From: Bacteroidia bacterium
GTDB taxonomy: Bacteria; Bacteroidota; Bacteroidia; NS11-12g; UBA955
NCBI GenBank assembly: GCA_030158725.1
Contig: JAOASJ010000126.1
Span: 1-64,000 of the forward strand
Reading direction: 5' to 3'
DNA: 64,000 nt
Shown: one piece after another, positions 34,360-40,046 of the stretch
Numbering within the stretch: position 1 is the stretch's first letter
How the letters are laid out: every line of letters starts with the position of its first letter
Position numbers and translations under genes: made by a program
Notes under the pieces: generated by a model
Databases searched by the model: none
The model's input: only the letters and a program-made list of their open reading frames with translations
Told to the model about the DNA's origin: nothing

Positions 34360-36357
34360 ATGGATAGAGATAGGGCTTGTGATCCTAAACGCCTGAATGC
34401 CTTGAGTCAATTCCAGATTATGGATAGTGAATCTGAGAAGGAATTCGATGACATTGTCAAATTGGCGGCAGAATATACCGAATGTCCAATAGCCTATATT
34501 TCTTTTGTTGACGATAAGCGCTCTTGGTTTAAGGCCAGAATAGGAATAGATGTAAATGAAGTTAGCATGGAACATTCATTTTGTGCTCAGTATACAGGTG
34601 TAGATCCATATTTATTAATAAACGATATTGATTCAAAGTCTGAATACAAAAACTTTCCGATACTAAAGCAATATCCTAACTTGAAATTTTATGCCGGTAT
34701 CCCAATTATTACAGTTGATGGATACATGCTGGGTTTTTTATCTGTAATGGATAACAAGTCAAGAGAAATTTCAGATGTTCAATTAAAATTCATGGGTTTG
34801 TTGCGCGATCAGGTTTTGAATTTGTTGCGTCTGAATTTAAAAGCGATAAACATTGAAAAATTAAGACAAGAGTCTGCAAGGAAATCAGTACATCTGAGAA
34901 ATTTATTTAACTATTCAATTGATGGGGTTATGATTTTTGATTCAGATTTTAAAGTCATAGAATGGAATCCAGTTTTAGAAAATATTTTTCAAATAAAATC
35001 GGTTGATGCAACCGGTAAAATGTTTTTAGATTTGATTTTTGATGGACAACAAGCCAGAGAATTTGAGAAAAATGTAGAGACCTTTATGGCTGGTGGATAT
35101 AAAACCCAGGGCAATGTTGTGTTTGAACAATCTGGAAAAGATCGCGCTGGTAATATTAAATATTTATCCATTGGTGTGTCAAGTTTTATCGGACAAAGAG
35201 GGCAATATTTTCCTTGCTTTATTTCTGACAGGACGGAATATATTTCAGCTCAAAAGGAAATAGCCAATCAAAAGCGTTTTTATGAAACGGTAATAAACAA
35301 TATACCTACGGACATCGTTGTATTTGATCGGAATCACCGTTACGTTTTTGTTAATCCAGAAGGAATTAAAAATCCTGAATTACGTGCTTTTGCAATTGGT
35401 AAAGATGATATTGAATACGCAAAGCACCTCAATAGAAGTATTGAGCCAGCCTTGCAAAGGAGAAAATTTTTTAATGAAGCTATAGAAACCAAACATCAAA
35501 TTGGTTGGGAGGAATCAGCCTACGGTTTAGATGGTCAGAGTTATACCAAACTCAGACGCTTTTTCCCAATTGTAGACGAGAACAATGAAGTGAATTTAGT
35601 TATAGGTTATGGGCTTGATATTTCGGATAGAAAACGCTTAGAGGAGGAACAAAAAAGTTTGATGGAAAAACTATCCTATCAAAACTTACAGCTCAGCGAT
35701 TTTTGCAATATTATTTCCCATAATTTACGTGCTCCTCTGGTGAGTATGACTATGCTCACTGAGTTTATTCATACAGCGGAAGACCAAGAAGAGCAAAAAT
35801 TATTGGTTTCAAAATTGGATCCTGTACTTAACAGTTTGAATGAAACCTTTGACGAATTGGTAAACTCACTTCAAATTCAACAAGACACAAAAATCCCAGT
35901 TGAGAAAAATGATTTGCACGACAGCATTCAAAGAGTGCTAAATGCTATGGATTTTGATATTTTACACAACAATGTAAAATTTGAATTTGAAATAGAGTCT
36001 ACACCCATAATCTCTTTCCCTGTTAAATACATGAACAGTATTTTGCAAAATTTAATCAGCAATGCAATTAAATACCGTTCATTGGAACGTGACCCAATTA
36101 TTAAAATATCAAGTAAAAAATTTGAAGACGAAATCGAATTATATGTATCTGACAATGGATTAGGAATAGACATTAATAGATACAAAGACCAAATCTTTAA
36201 AATAGGAAAAATATTTCACCGCCACCCCAATGCAAAAGGTTTTGGTTTGTTTATGACTAAAGCGCAAGTTGAAGCCATGGGTGGAAAAATTGAAATAGAC
36301 AGTAAAATCAACGAAGGAACAACATTTAAAATCACATTTATAGATCAGCAAATATGA
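34360..36357 (+). CDS. Soluble GAF-PAS-PAS sensor histidine kinase
   Basis: GAF CPIAYISFVDDKRSWFKARIG; PAS domains; FCNIISHNLRAPLVSM; GFGLFMTKAQVEAMGGKI; no TM segment. Confidence 0.9.
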   Translation: MDRDRACDPKRLNALSQFQIMDSESEKEFDDIVKLAAEYTECPIAYISFVDDKRSWFKARIGIDVNEVSMEHSFCAQYTGVDPYLLINDIDSKSEYKNFPILKQYPNLKFYAGIPIITVDGYMLGFLSVMDNKSREISDVQLKFMGLLRDQVLNLLRLNLKAINIEKLRQESARKSVHLRNLFNYSIDGVMIFDSDFKVIEWNPVLENIFQIKSVDATGKMFLDLIFDGQQAREFEKNVETFMAGGYKTQGNVVFEQSGKDRAGNIKYLSIGVSSFIGQRGQYFPCFISDRTEYISAQKEIANQKRFYETVINNIPTDIVVFDRNHRYVFVNPEGIKNPELRAFAIGKDDIEYAKHLNRSIEPALQRRKFFNEAIETKHQIGWEESAYGLDGQSYTKLRRFFPIVDENNEVNLVIGYGLDISDRKRLEEEQKSLMEKLSYQNLQLSDFCNIISHNLRAPLVSMTMLTEFIHTAEDQEEQKLLVSKLDPVLNSLNETFDELVNSLQIQQDTKIPVEKNDLHDSIQRVLNAMDFDILHNNVKFEFEIESTPIISFPVKYMNSILQNLISNAIKYRSLERDPIIKISSKKFEDEIELYVSDNGLGIDINRYKDQIFKIGKIFHRHPNAKGFGLFMTKAQVEAMGGKIEIDSKINEGTTFKITFIDQQI

Positions 36358-36764
36358 GGCAACTAAAAATATTTATTATTGACGACGACAGTGTAATCGC
36401 TTTTTTAGCTAAAAAAACGATAGACTCCAGCAATGTCTCAAGTAAAATCAGAGATTTCCAAGAGGGTAGCGATGCCTTAGCTTTTTTAAAAGAATTTTGT
36501 GATGTCGCAGAGGAATTACCTGACATAATTTTACTAGATATCAGTATGCCAATTATGGATGGTTGGCACTTCCTAGAGGAATACGCTAAGTTAATGCCTA
36601 AAATGTCTAAGAAGAATAATTTATATATGTTCTCATCATCAATTAGTCAAATCGACATAGAACGCGCTAAAAGTAATCCTTTGGTAAAAGACTATATTTT
36701 CAAACCATTGCAAAAAGAAAGATTTTTAGCTATGGTTGAAGAACTTGGTGAAACCATGAACTAG
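36354..36764 (+). CDS. Single-domain response regulator
   Basis: FIIDDDSVIAFLAKKTI, LLDISMPIMDGW; overlaps the kinase stop by 4 nt. Confidence 0.93.
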   Translation: MRQLKIFIIDDDSVIAFLAKKTIDSSNVSSKIRDFQEGSDALAFLKEFCDVAEELPDIILLDISMPIMDGWHFLEEYAKLMPKMSKKNNLYMFSSSISQIDIERAKSNPLVKDYIFKPLQKERFLAMVEELGETMN

Positions 36765-37936
36765 ATAAAAAACTCTTTTTTTGAATTGATTCGTTCAAAT
36801 GCTTCACTCAAAATTGCCTCTGAGCTAGCATAACAGATTCTTAAATAGCCTTCTGATTTAGACTCAAACCAATTATTACCTCCAGGTACTAACGCTACAT
36901 TGCTAATGTCTAATATATTTTTTACCAATTCTTCTGAATTGATTTCTTGTCTTATTTTAGGGAACATCAAATAGGTTGAATCACTTTCAACGGGGTGAAG
37001 AAATCCTGAGTTTTTTACAAAATTCTGACTCAGTGTTTTCATTTTACCCAAGTGTTTTCTGAAACCATTTAACCAATCGTCGCACTCACTTAGCGCACTA
37101 ATACCAGCCGCTTGTGCTAAGGGTGACAATCCAAAGGCTGTAGATTGGTGTAAAGAGTTTTCAAGTACTTTTCGGTAAAAGGTATTATTGGGGCTAATAA
37201 TATAGCCGATACGCAGTCCCGCTAATCCAAAGTTTTTAGATAAACCCGAAATTACAACCGTCTTTTCGTAAGGAATACTTGAAGAATTTAAAACACTAAT
37301 GACCTTTTTGTCGTAGTAAATATCTGCCCATATTTCATCTGCTATCAACCATAAATCATGCTTTTTTGCAAACGATTTTAGCTTGTTTATTTGTTCTAAA
37401 GTATAACTTTTGCCTAGAGGATTATTTGGATTACAAAGCATGATTGCTTTGGTTTTGGAATTGATTTTTTGCTCCAGTTCAATAAAATCGTATTCTGCAG
37501 TATCCATATTTACTTCACAAGGAATCGCGCTTCCTTTTGCATACTCTATAGATTTTCTAAAAAGAAAGTCTACCGGATTGGGGATAATTGCTTGCTCGCC
37601 TTCTTTCAATATGGTTTTCATAACCACAAACAAAGCATAAGCAGCGCTGTTAACAGGTAAAATAAACTCTGGGTTACAATCTGCTAAATGCTGTCTTTTA
37701 TACCAATTTGAGATGGCTTGTTTAAATTCATACAAACCTTCTGCTGGTCCGTAAGAAAAGTAGCCATCTTCTATATATTTTTTAATGCTTTCTTTGATAG
37801 GAGGGGCAACAGGGAAATCGGGGTCAGCTGCAGTTAAAGGTATTATACCCTTGGGGTGTACAGCCCAACGGTAATTAAATGCTTTTTTTTCTAAAGCATC
37901 AATGTTTACATTTTCATTTGAGAAAAATCTATCCAT
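36761..37936 (-). CDS. Class I/II PLP aminotransferase / MalY-PatB-like
   Basis: ICNPNNPLGK-like CNPNNPLG, ADEIWADI, SGLSKNFGLAGLRIGY. Confidence 0.88.
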   Translation of the reverse strand: MDRFFSNENVNIDALEKKAFNYRWAVHPKGIIPLTAADPDFPVAPPIKESIKKYIEDGYFSYGPAEGLYEFKQAISNWYKRQHLADCNPEFILPVNSAAYALFVVMKTILKEGEQAIIPNPVDFLFRKSIEYAKGSAIPCEVNMDTAEYDFIELEQKINSKTKAIMLCNPNNPLGKSYTLEQINKLKSFAKKHDLWLIADEIWADIYYDKKVISVLNSSSIPYEKTVVISGLSKNFGLAGLRIGYIISPNNTFYRKVLENSLHQSTAFGLSPLAQAAGISALSECDDWLNGFRKHLGKMKTLSQNFVKNSGFLHPVESDSTYLMFPKIRQEINSEELVKNILDISNVALVPGGNNWFESKSEGYLRICYASSEAILSEAFERINSKKEFFI

Positions 37937-37937
37937 T

Positions 37938-39905
37938 TTAATGTAATGATATTGGAATTTTTAATTGTTCAACATTGGTGAGATTTAAAAAATCTTTAAC
38001 CAAGTCATCACCTTCGTTAATATAAAATTGAATCTGTTCTTTTCTATCTTGATAATATTGGTCAAATACGTCCTCTAAACTTTGGTTTTCGCCTTGTTTT
38101 GACAAATTGGATAGCAAACAAGAGACATCTTCGAGTGCTGAGTTTGCTCCCTGACTGGTAAATGCAATTAATGGGTGTGCGGCATCTCCCGCTAAAACCA
38201 AATTGCTTGAATGGAATGAAGGCAATAAATCCATTCGTTTGGCCACCCAAAGAACAGACTTTGCTGGATCGCTATATTTCACCACATTTTGAAATTCTAT
38301 TGGATAGTTTTTAACTGTGTCTAATGCATAATTTTTAATGCTTTCAGGGTCTCTGTCATTTAATGGATGTGTGGAATTGTTAAATTGAATAAACCATATA
38401 TAATCGCCACCACCAAGAGGAATTAAGCCCATGTTTTTGCCATTTTCTTTGTCAATTATTTTTAGAAATTCATCGCTAGGAATATTTAATTCATGCTGGT
38501 TTAATATTCCTACAATTTCCCTTTCATTGATTTCTTCCAATATTAGATTTGGGAAAATTTGTGACCTGATTTTTGAGTGAATACCATCACAAGCAAAGTA
38601 AATATCATTTTGAATCGTTTGCCCATTTTGCATACTCAAGCTTTCAATTTTGTTTTCTGAATTGTAGTTGATATTTGCTACCTGATTTTCCATTAAGAGA
38701 TGGTCATCGCCAACTTCATCTTGTAAAATTTTCAGGAAATTTTCACGGCTAATTGCAGTGCATTCTTCAAGGATTTGGGTAAATAAAAGTTGTCCTTTGG
38801 GGTTAATGGCTTTAAAGAAATTAAGCGTATTGCTGTTTTTTAACAGAATATTCTTTAAACCCAATAGGCGCATTGCTTCCATGCCATTTTCAAGAAGCAA
38901 GAAGCCTAAGCCACCCGATTTAAATACATCATTTTTTTCGTAAATTTTAAAATCAATTTTATACCTTTTTAAATGCAGAGCTAGAAAGTAACCACAAACA
39001 CCGCCACCAATTATGGCCGCGTTTTTAAACTTCAATCCATTCTTATTTATTTTATAAGGAGAGTTGTTTATACTCCAATAGTTTATTTCGGTATTCTCTT
39101 CTTTAATTACTTCTCCTTTGTCAAAGGACTCTTGAAGGTCTGCATTTACTTTGTCAATACCTTCTTCGTTAATTGAATTTAGCTCTGATGTTGTCATTCC
39201 GTAAAAATTTTCTAAAATTTTAATCGCACTTGTTTTTGCCGTCTTCTTTGTTATTTCTCCATTCGATAATTCGAACATGATGTCTTCCCAATCTTTATAT
39301 ATTTCTTCTCCTCTGGTATTGTTGTTAATGTGTTTTACGTATTTTTTGTATTGGAAACTTTCATTGTAGAATACCATGCTTGGGTATGAGGTGATTTTCC
39401 AAATATCTCTTTCAATTAGATCGCGTTTAAAATCGTGTTCTGCAATTCCACTTTTGAAATCGGTAACAAACTGCGCTAAGTCTAATTTGCATTGTATTGC
39501 TGCACTTATTACATGGTGTTCTTTGCTAATGTCTTTGTGTTGAAGAAAAACCATTTCTCTAAGTGTGTGCAAAAAATGTAGGGCTTTCTTATTGCCTTGT
39601 TTTTTCGCTGCATAGTAGGCAATACAAGCAGGGAAGGAAGACTGAATAGGGTAGTCTGTCCAAATTTTCCCATCCATTATAACACCATATTTTCGACCGA
39701 GACTGGTCCACATCTCTGAAAGATATAAATCTTTAGGCATGGTCGTATTAGAAGGTTGGTAATATTCCCATGATTCTAAAAGCCCACCCATTCTTACCTC
39801 TATATCAATGTCATCGCCGTATTCAATGAGTAATTTATTTAAAAATGGTTCCGCTAGCCAGCAACTAGAACAGATGGGGTCGGTATAATAAACCAGTTTA
39901 ACCAT
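37938..39905 (-). CDS. Thioredoxin/DsbA-fold (CSSC) - FAD-dependent monooxygenase fusion protein
   Basis: 655 aa; YYTDPICSSCWLAEPFL at N-terminus; AAIIGGGVCGYFLALHLKRYKIDFKIYEK and LAGDAAHPLIAFTSQGANSALED in C-terminal two thirds. Confidence 0.9.
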   Translation of the reverse strand: MVKLVYYTDPICSSCWLAEPFLNKLLIEYGDDIDIEVRMGGLLESWEYYQPSNTTMPKDLYLSEMWTSLGRKYGVIMDGKIWTDYPIQSSFPACIAYYAAKKQGNKKALHFLHTLREMVFLQHKDISKEHHVISAAIQCKLDLAQFVTDFKSGIAEHDFKRDLIERDIWKITSYPSMVFYNESFQYKKYVKHINNNTRGEEIYKDWEDIMFELSNGEITKKTAKTSAIKILENFYGMTTSELNSINEEGIDKVNADLQESFDKGEVIKEENTEINYWSINNSPYKINKNGLKFKNAAIIGGGVCGYFLALHLKRYKIDFKIYEKNDVFKSGGLGFLLLENGMEAMRLLGLKNILLKNSNTLNFFKAINPKGQLLFTQILEECTAISRENFLKILQDEVGDDHLLMENQVANINYNSENKIESLSMQNGQTIQNDIYFACDGIHSKIRSQIFPNLILEEINEREIVGILNQHELNIPSDEFLKIIDKENGKNMGLIPLGGGDYIWFIQFNNSTHPLNDRDPESIKNYALDTVKNYPIEFQNVVKYSDPAKSVLWVAKRMDLLPSFHSSNLVLAGDAAHPLIAFTSQGANSALEDVSCLLSNLSKQGENQSLEDVFDQYYQDRKEQIQFYINEGDDLVKDFLNLTNVEQLKIPISLH

Positions 39906-40033
39906 TTTTAATATTTTTAATCATTTCTAAGGTTGTTGAAACAAGTAATTTTAATCTCCTCAGTACTAAATTAGTCTAAATACTCTACGCTTTCAAAATA
40001 TTAAAATTGTTTTTTGTTTAAAATTAAAACATT

Positions 40034-40046
40034 GATTATCATAATC
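40034..40046. promoter_or_regulatory. Perfect 13-bp inverted repeat upstream of the fusion gene
   Basis: gattat c ataatc. Confidence 0.35.

Follow-up and report, generated by a model that had tools for sequence, protein, structure and literature searches.

What does a thiol redox domain do when it is built into a flavin monooxygenase? The question is raised by a locus in a 64,000-nucleotide stretch of a Bacteroidia bacterium genome (assembly GCA_030158725.1, contig JAOASJ010000126.1, positions 1 to 64,000; hereafter the window, meaning that whole stretch). Here a single 655-aa open reading frame (ORF) joins a thioredoxin domain to a predicted group A flavin adenine dinucleotide (FAD) monooxygenase (FMO), and a gene for a fold-type I pyridoxal phosphate (PLP) enzyme follows. 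Our answer, to which we give a probability of roughly 0.4, is that these genes belong to a conserved cytosolic oxidation module. The FMO and the PLP enzyme would act on one amino-acid-derived small molecule with the dithiol domain as reductant, and in part of the lineages a histidine kinase and a response regulator (RR) would control the module or respond to it. We count in its favour the linkage of the PLP and FMO genes, the fusion of the thioredoxin domain in both orders, loci with separate thioredoxin, FMO and PLP genes, the conserved FAD and CxxC motifs, ratios of nonsynonymous to synonymous substitution rates (dN/dS) of 0.025-0.044, a confident AlphaFold2 (AF2) model, the lack of a signal peptide, the kinase–RR linkage and a remnant of the module in a genome of the same genus (G008).

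A thioredoxin protein and a monooxygenase in one reading frame

The fusion and its parts are laid out as follows:

37938..39905, reverse strand: 655-aa fusion of a DsbA/SpxH-like thioredoxin, a winged-helix-like segment and a group A FMO (ORF, Pfam, order shared with homologues in 11 other genomes)
39339..39905, reverse strand: Thioredoxin_5 domain, residues 1-189
39861..39872, reverse strand: CSSC redox motif, residues 12-15
39051..39338, reverse strand: winged-helix-like segment, residues 190-285
37938..39050, reverse strand: group A FMO domain, residues 286-655 (PF01494; resembles TetX, HpxO and 6-hydroxynicotinate monooxygenase in profile and fold)
38991-39008, reverse strand: GGGVCG (GxGxxG) motif of the FMO domain
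38565-38591, reverse strand: DG motif CDGIHSKIR of the FMO domain
38175-38189, reverse strand: GD motif GDAAH of the FMO domain

A preliminary description made from the letters alone had reported the fusion, and its coordinates and motifs hold. The ORF is one reading frame with an ATG start and no frameshift. Thioredoxin_5 (PF13743) covers residues 7-185 (E 6e-42; 143.9 bits against a cut-off of 27), which places the N-terminal part in that family, and the cis-Pro region reads TSYPS. FAD_binding_3 (PF01494) covers residues 296-625 (E 2e-19; 70.7 bits against a cut-off of 22); with this profile and the GxGxxG, DG and GD motifs, the second half is a predicted group A FMO. The CxxC is intact in 47 of the 49 fused domains among relatives, and a strict pattern for the FAD motifs is intact in 80/85 FMOs. 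The same order occurs in relatives of the same genus at 89% (G010) and 54% identity. Between the window and G010, dN/dS is 0.025 for the thioredoxin domain, 0.044 for the linker and 0.040 for the FMO, rough ratios given that synonymous sites are near saturation; purifying selection acts on all parts. An assembly artefact, a frameshift or a sequencing error as the source of the fusion is ruled out by the 11 other genomes and the low dN/dS. Because the AF2 model is confident over the whole fusion (predicted local distance difference test score, pLDDT, 94.8; predicted template modelling score, pTM, 0.92), it suggests that the two halves pack in a defined way. No signal peptide was seen by eye on the fusions, so they should be cytosolic.

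As to whether the fusion is a common annotated family, profile searches reached no cut-off of a curated family that would name it as a fusion. PHROG gave no match for the fusion and, for the PLP enzyme, a single family with no assigned function, on which outcome a phage origin was rejected, as was an anti-phage defence system, since no PADLOC model matched the four module proteins.

Residues 190-285, on which the preliminary description was silent, have no Pfam match. They are modelled by AF2 as three helices followed by a beta hairpin, align with the C-terminus of free-standing Thioredoxin_5 proteins and are conserved throughout. The segment has a predicted winged-helix-like topology and is no neutral linker; the fusion has therefore captured an entire thioredoxin/winged-helix-like protein. 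Many of the stand-alone proteins carry a hydrophobic, lipoprotein-like N-terminal extension, although the start codon is uncertain in some. In stand-alone proteins (e.g. L047 9558-10604 and L050 622-1623) the thioredoxin domain is preceded by a conserved N-terminal motif resembling NPLLCDPETGICEIP (C-x7-C or similar), which the fusions lack.

The nearest solved structure to the thioredoxin domain is that of SpxH/YjbH (6ghb, E 1.6e-23), a ClpXP adaptor, and NCBI names one free-standing relative a 'ClpXP adapter SpxH family protein'. Together with the conservation of the winged-helix-like segment, this raises the idea that the N-terminal half is an adaptor. It would bind a protein or a nucleic acid and, depending on redox state, deliver that partner or regulate it, and the FMO would act as the sensor or the effector. 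We think this improbable: the similarity to SpxH is confined to the thioredoxin domain (the C-terminal part of SpxH/YjbH, which carries no monooxygenase, did not align), and the intact FAD motifs and the PLP linkage point to metabolism.

The PLP enzyme

36761..37936, reverse strand: PLP enzyme of fold-type I, resembling aminotransferases or C-S lyases (PF00155; invariant DEIW.D and SK...GLAGLR; conserved next to the FMO)

As first described, this gene begins a single nucleotide past the fusion stop (TAA-A-ATG), and the same spacing recurs in G010 and L055. Its naming as an aminotransferase stands as far as the fold goes: PF00155 matches with 161.8 bits, and the catalytic lysine (K234) and carboxylate-binding arginine (R366) of the class I/II fold are invariant. 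The enzyme also has C-S-lyase-like features. Profile and fold searches (model pLDDT 94.6) place it between class I/II aminotransferases and C-S lyases of the PatB/MalY kind; these, and also GntC, are the closest profiles and structures, all of fold-type I. Its combination of invariant motifs sets it apart from both: in the alignment, DEIW.D equals DEIH.D of a C-S-lyase-like relative except for the tryptophan, and AGLR mixes lyase-like AGLQ with transaminase-like GWR. The score against the PatB C-S lyase model TIGR04350 was 173.7 bits against a cut-off of 340, and all other NCBIfam scores were likewise below their cut-offs. Because the motifs are mixed and no curated model reached its cut-off, 'aminotransferase' is a fold label, with profile, structure and motif all compatible with either a transaminase or a C-S lyase.

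The module recurs with the fusion in both orders

To place the locus among its relatives, 84,980 species genomes were scanned with an alignment of the PLP enzyme, the best 80 loci were kept and domains were mapped on each. The PLP gene adjoins an orthologous FMO gene in nearly all of these, so that the linkage is conserved, and it extends to the reversed fusion order. The arrangement of the window (thioredoxin–FMO fused, then PLP) was found in 12 genomes, the window's included. In about 35 genomes the thioredoxin domain is fused to the FMO C-terminus; PLP followed by FMO–thioredoxin is the commonest fusion arrangement and occurs in Pedobacter, Flavobacterium, Flectobacillus and many metagenome-assembled genomes. 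One locus (L063) has FMO–thioredoxin followed by PLP. Five loci (L080, L087, L096, L098 and L106) have separate neighbouring genes in the order thioredoxin, FMO, PLP. FMO and PLP genes without an adjacent thioredoxin are found in most Chryseobacterium, some Pedobacter and others. The thioredoxin domain is thus a separate gene in some relatives and fused in many. In a phylum-wide sample of 393 genomes a single fusion (G303) was found besides that of the window; the fusion is rare yet spread over several families of Bacteroidota. That the two domains are fused in both orders, and also occur as free-standing neighbours, is strong evidence from the genomes for a joint action of redox domain and monooxygenase.

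In the thioredoxin tree, the thioredoxin–FMO sequences form one clade (support 99/99); the separate proteins L106 and G095s sit immediately outside it. A second clade unites 35 FMO–thioredoxin sequences, stand-alone proteins lie in between, and L063 is placed outside this second clade. The FMO tree, built by a quick method and with long branches flagged, agrees on the thioredoxin–FMO clade and on the position of L063. Because the domain orders are opposite, two or three separate fusions explain the data most simply; they are favoured, not proven, as an approximately unbiased test did not reject a single clade of all fusions (p 0.109), though the best thioredoxin tree splits the two orders. Pedobacter FMOs without a thioredoxin domain nest among FMO–thioredoxin sequences in the FMO tree, and by this placement they have lost it. 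Cultured hosts (Pedobacter, Flavobacterium and Chryseobacterium) have versions with and without the domain.

Some neighbouring genes recur. The S-adenosylmethionine synthetase gene metK adjoins the module in a thioredoxin–FMO lineage and in a Flavobacterium FMO–thioredoxin lineage (L055 3629-4882, L123 10457-11809 and L170 11700-12950). In a locus from Flavobacteriales (L062 5875-13543), two module-type FMO genes flank one PLP gene and are followed by genes for cysteine synthase (cysK) and a Cys/Met-metabolism PLP enzyme.

A kinase and response regulator accompany part of the modules

34360..36357, forward strand: GAF-PAS histidine kinase of a module-tied subfamily (adjacent in 15 genomes; subfamily found in 2/393 phylum genomes, both times at the module)
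36354..36764, forward strand: single-domain (CheY-like) RR (PF00072; conserved next to the module)

The RR gene overlaps both of its neighbours, the kinase gene and, in tail-to-tail orientation, the PLP gene. The preliminary description had not mentioned the kinase–RR pair, nor the reversed fusions. The pair adjoins the module in 15 genomes: convergently in the window and G010, divergently in G015, and co-directionally as kinase–RR–PLP–FMO(–thioredoxin) in twelve loci (L071, L075, L095, L099, L103, L110, L113, L122, L125, L127, L131 and G527), where the RR–PLP gaps are about 100 bp or less. The module kinase scores 380-630 bits in relatives against less than 181 bits for other kinases genome-wide, the exception being a paralogue in three genomes of the same genus. 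Among the 393 phylum genomes, its subfamily was found in the window genome and G527 only. At the syntenic site of G008, a genome of the same genus (L169 7150-8376), the RR gene is intact, while the fusion gene has been deleted along with most of the kinase and PLP genes; what is left of these two is the C-terminal part of the kinase and roughly 95 bp from the 3' end of the PLP gene. Because most modules are without it, the kinase is a frequent partner and no core part of the module; where present, it offers a way to learn under which conditions the pathway operates.

Such tight linkage could mean that the module makes a signal molecule detected by the kinase, following the synthase-next-to-sensor logic of CqsA/CqsS, as opposed to mere regulation of an ordinary pathway. 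The near-exclusive tie of the kinase subfamily to the module, its adjacency in three relative orientations, the joint loss of kinase and module in G008 and the pairing of a paralogous kinase with a FIST gene would fit this. We hold it to be unlikely, given that most modules have no kinase, that neither the FMO nor the PLP enzyme is CqsA-like by any profile and that regulation suffices to explain the linkage. A further speculation, to which we give similarly long odds, is an undescribed kinase-linked biosynthetic module in which FMO oxygenation, cleavage of a bond by the PLP enzyme and reduction by the dithiol are coupled physically. The product would be a new metabolite, perhaps one that contains sulfur, and the two-component system would sense it as well.

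In the window genome, G010 and G015, the paralogous kinase gene lies directly after a FIST-domain gene, an architecture like that of NosP (L132 3888-6769, L133 8871-11719 and L033 12591-15445); in L033 the pair follows closely downstream of the module. FIST proteins of the NosP type sense nitric oxide and control an adjacent kinase (PMC12570481). A FIST/NosP link of the module itself was rejected; only the paralogous kinase is involved, and a FIST search of the window was negative. Next to the FIST–kinase pair of G010 are two further genes, both recognised by eye (L133 5536-8389): one is rhodopsin-like (239 aa), the other similar to those for lycopene cyclase or beta-carotene cleavage enzymes.

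Proposed function and relation to known enzymes

In the reading that we favour, the group A FMO and the fold-type I PLP enzyme would act on the same amino-acid-derived compound. The DsbA/SpxH-type dithiol domain, fused to the FMO or encoded next to it, would use its CxxC to reduce leftovers of oxygenation, be it a product with an oxidised sulfur or an electrophilic one, or the enzymes themselves in oxidised form. The thiol redox role on substrate or enzyme that the preliminary description suggested may thus hold. The histidine kinase and single-domain RR, in those lineages that have them, may control the module or be responsive to what it makes. As one candidate among others, a sulfur substrate would account well for the joint presence of FMO, PLP enzyme and dithiol. 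The analogy is to EgtE of ergothioneine biosynthesis, a PLP lyase that acts on a sulfoxide and yields a sulfenic acid, which dithiothreitol (DTT) reduces to the thiol (PMC4493562). EgtE shares the proposed logic of a PLP lyase with thiol reduction of an oxidised sulfur product; its system has no FMO and no fused thioredoxin, and a functional likeness would be hypothetical. The metK genes in two lineages, and cysK with the Cys/Met PLP gene in L062, are weak hints to sulfur amino acids.

Several observations weigh against this reading. The metK and cysK hints could be coincidence, and the PLP enzyme can be assigned neither as a transaminase nor as a lyase. Outside the kinase-bearing lineages, a linked kinase is missing from most modules. 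Two fused domains (G079 and L092) lack the second cysteine, and a stand-alone thioredoxin gene adjoins each. Finally, a thioredoxin homologue at E 1e-15 or better is absent genome-wide in 10 of 11 Chryseobacterium and in 4/4 Pedobacter that have FMO and PLP genes with no adjacent thioredoxin; the eleventh Chryseobacterium genome has a weak homologue only. Because the CxxC is kept in 47/49 fused domains, yet the homologue is absent from these genomes, the thioredoxin domain looks like a helper that is under selection yet can be replaced.

One lineage is of note here (L035 12687-13724, L092 8154-9155 and L070 9644-10645): either the second cysteine is gone (CSAS or CSTS) or the whole domain is, and a stand-alone CSSC thioredoxin gene lies adjacent on the other strand.

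The preliminary description had not recognised the arrangement of a thiol-redox module on a monooxygenase. Group A monooxygenases with a thioredoxin-like C-terminal domain III, of unclear function, are however known (PMC4515095, PMC3546652, PMC9299503). Those enzymes (PHHY, MHBH, PgaE, CabE, RdmE, HbpA and GrhO5) likewise combine a group A FMO core and a thioredoxin fold in one chain. Their domain is C-terminal, of another thioredoxin type and mostly without catalytic cysteines, whereas the module has a DsbA/SpxH-type CxxC domain at either end of the FMO, a winged-helix-like segment, a PLP partner and a kinase. The fusion, with its N-terminal Thioredoxin_5 domain, had no match to Rng_hyd_C or Phe_hydrox_dim at E 1e-3. 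Thioredoxin domains on group A monooxygenases are therefore already known, and the module differs in thioredoxin type, CxxC, position, extra segment and partners. It is a CxxC-bearing counterpart to the enigmatic, mostly cysteine-less domain III, and the role of such domains becomes testable.

In domain III, a catalytic cysteine is reported to permit degradation of H2O2 with DTT in some members, and the domain is otherwise proposed to contribute to stability or protein contacts (PMC9299503; PMC4515095). By this precedent, the module's thioredoxin domain could be a scavenger of H2O2 from uncoupled FMO turnover, or a structural or oligomerising part, and have no share in product chemistry. Such a role would explain the location of the domain at either end of the FMO and, better than product reduction does, its dispensability in Chryseobacterium and Pedobacter. 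The difference in thioredoxin type from domain III speaks against it, and the strong conservation of the CxxC opposes a purely structural role. We regard peroxide scavenging as the main rival to the oxidation module, and this pair of roles together as less probable than it, if a good deal more credible than an adaptor or a signal synthase.

The closest solved monooxygenases by profile and fold are HpxO, Tet(X) and 6-hydroxynicotinate 3-monooxygenase, which share 17-22% identity with the module FMO in the fold search. Membership of the Tet(X) or HpxO families was rejected (46.1 bits against a cut-off of 750 and 99.9 against 500 in NCBIfam). No description of the module was found in the open full-text literature, a coverage that leaves out most subscription journals. 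With its redox domain at either end, the same PLP enzyme next door and often a sensor kinase of its own, the FMO points, in scattered Bacteroidota, to a small-molecule pathway that has not been studied and that has redox chemistry built in.

Other features of the window

An inverted repeat, GATTATCATAATC (40034-40046), is present upstream of the fusion as first described. At up to one mismatch, 0.34 matches of this type are expected per window and at least one occurs in 29/100 shuffles, and the repeat is not conserved in the 89% identical G010. It was rejected as a regulatory site on both grounds and is best taken as chance. Near the module, beyond the kinase gene, the window holds a second DsbA-family gene of the ordinary type (PF01323; 33223-33876, reverse strand).

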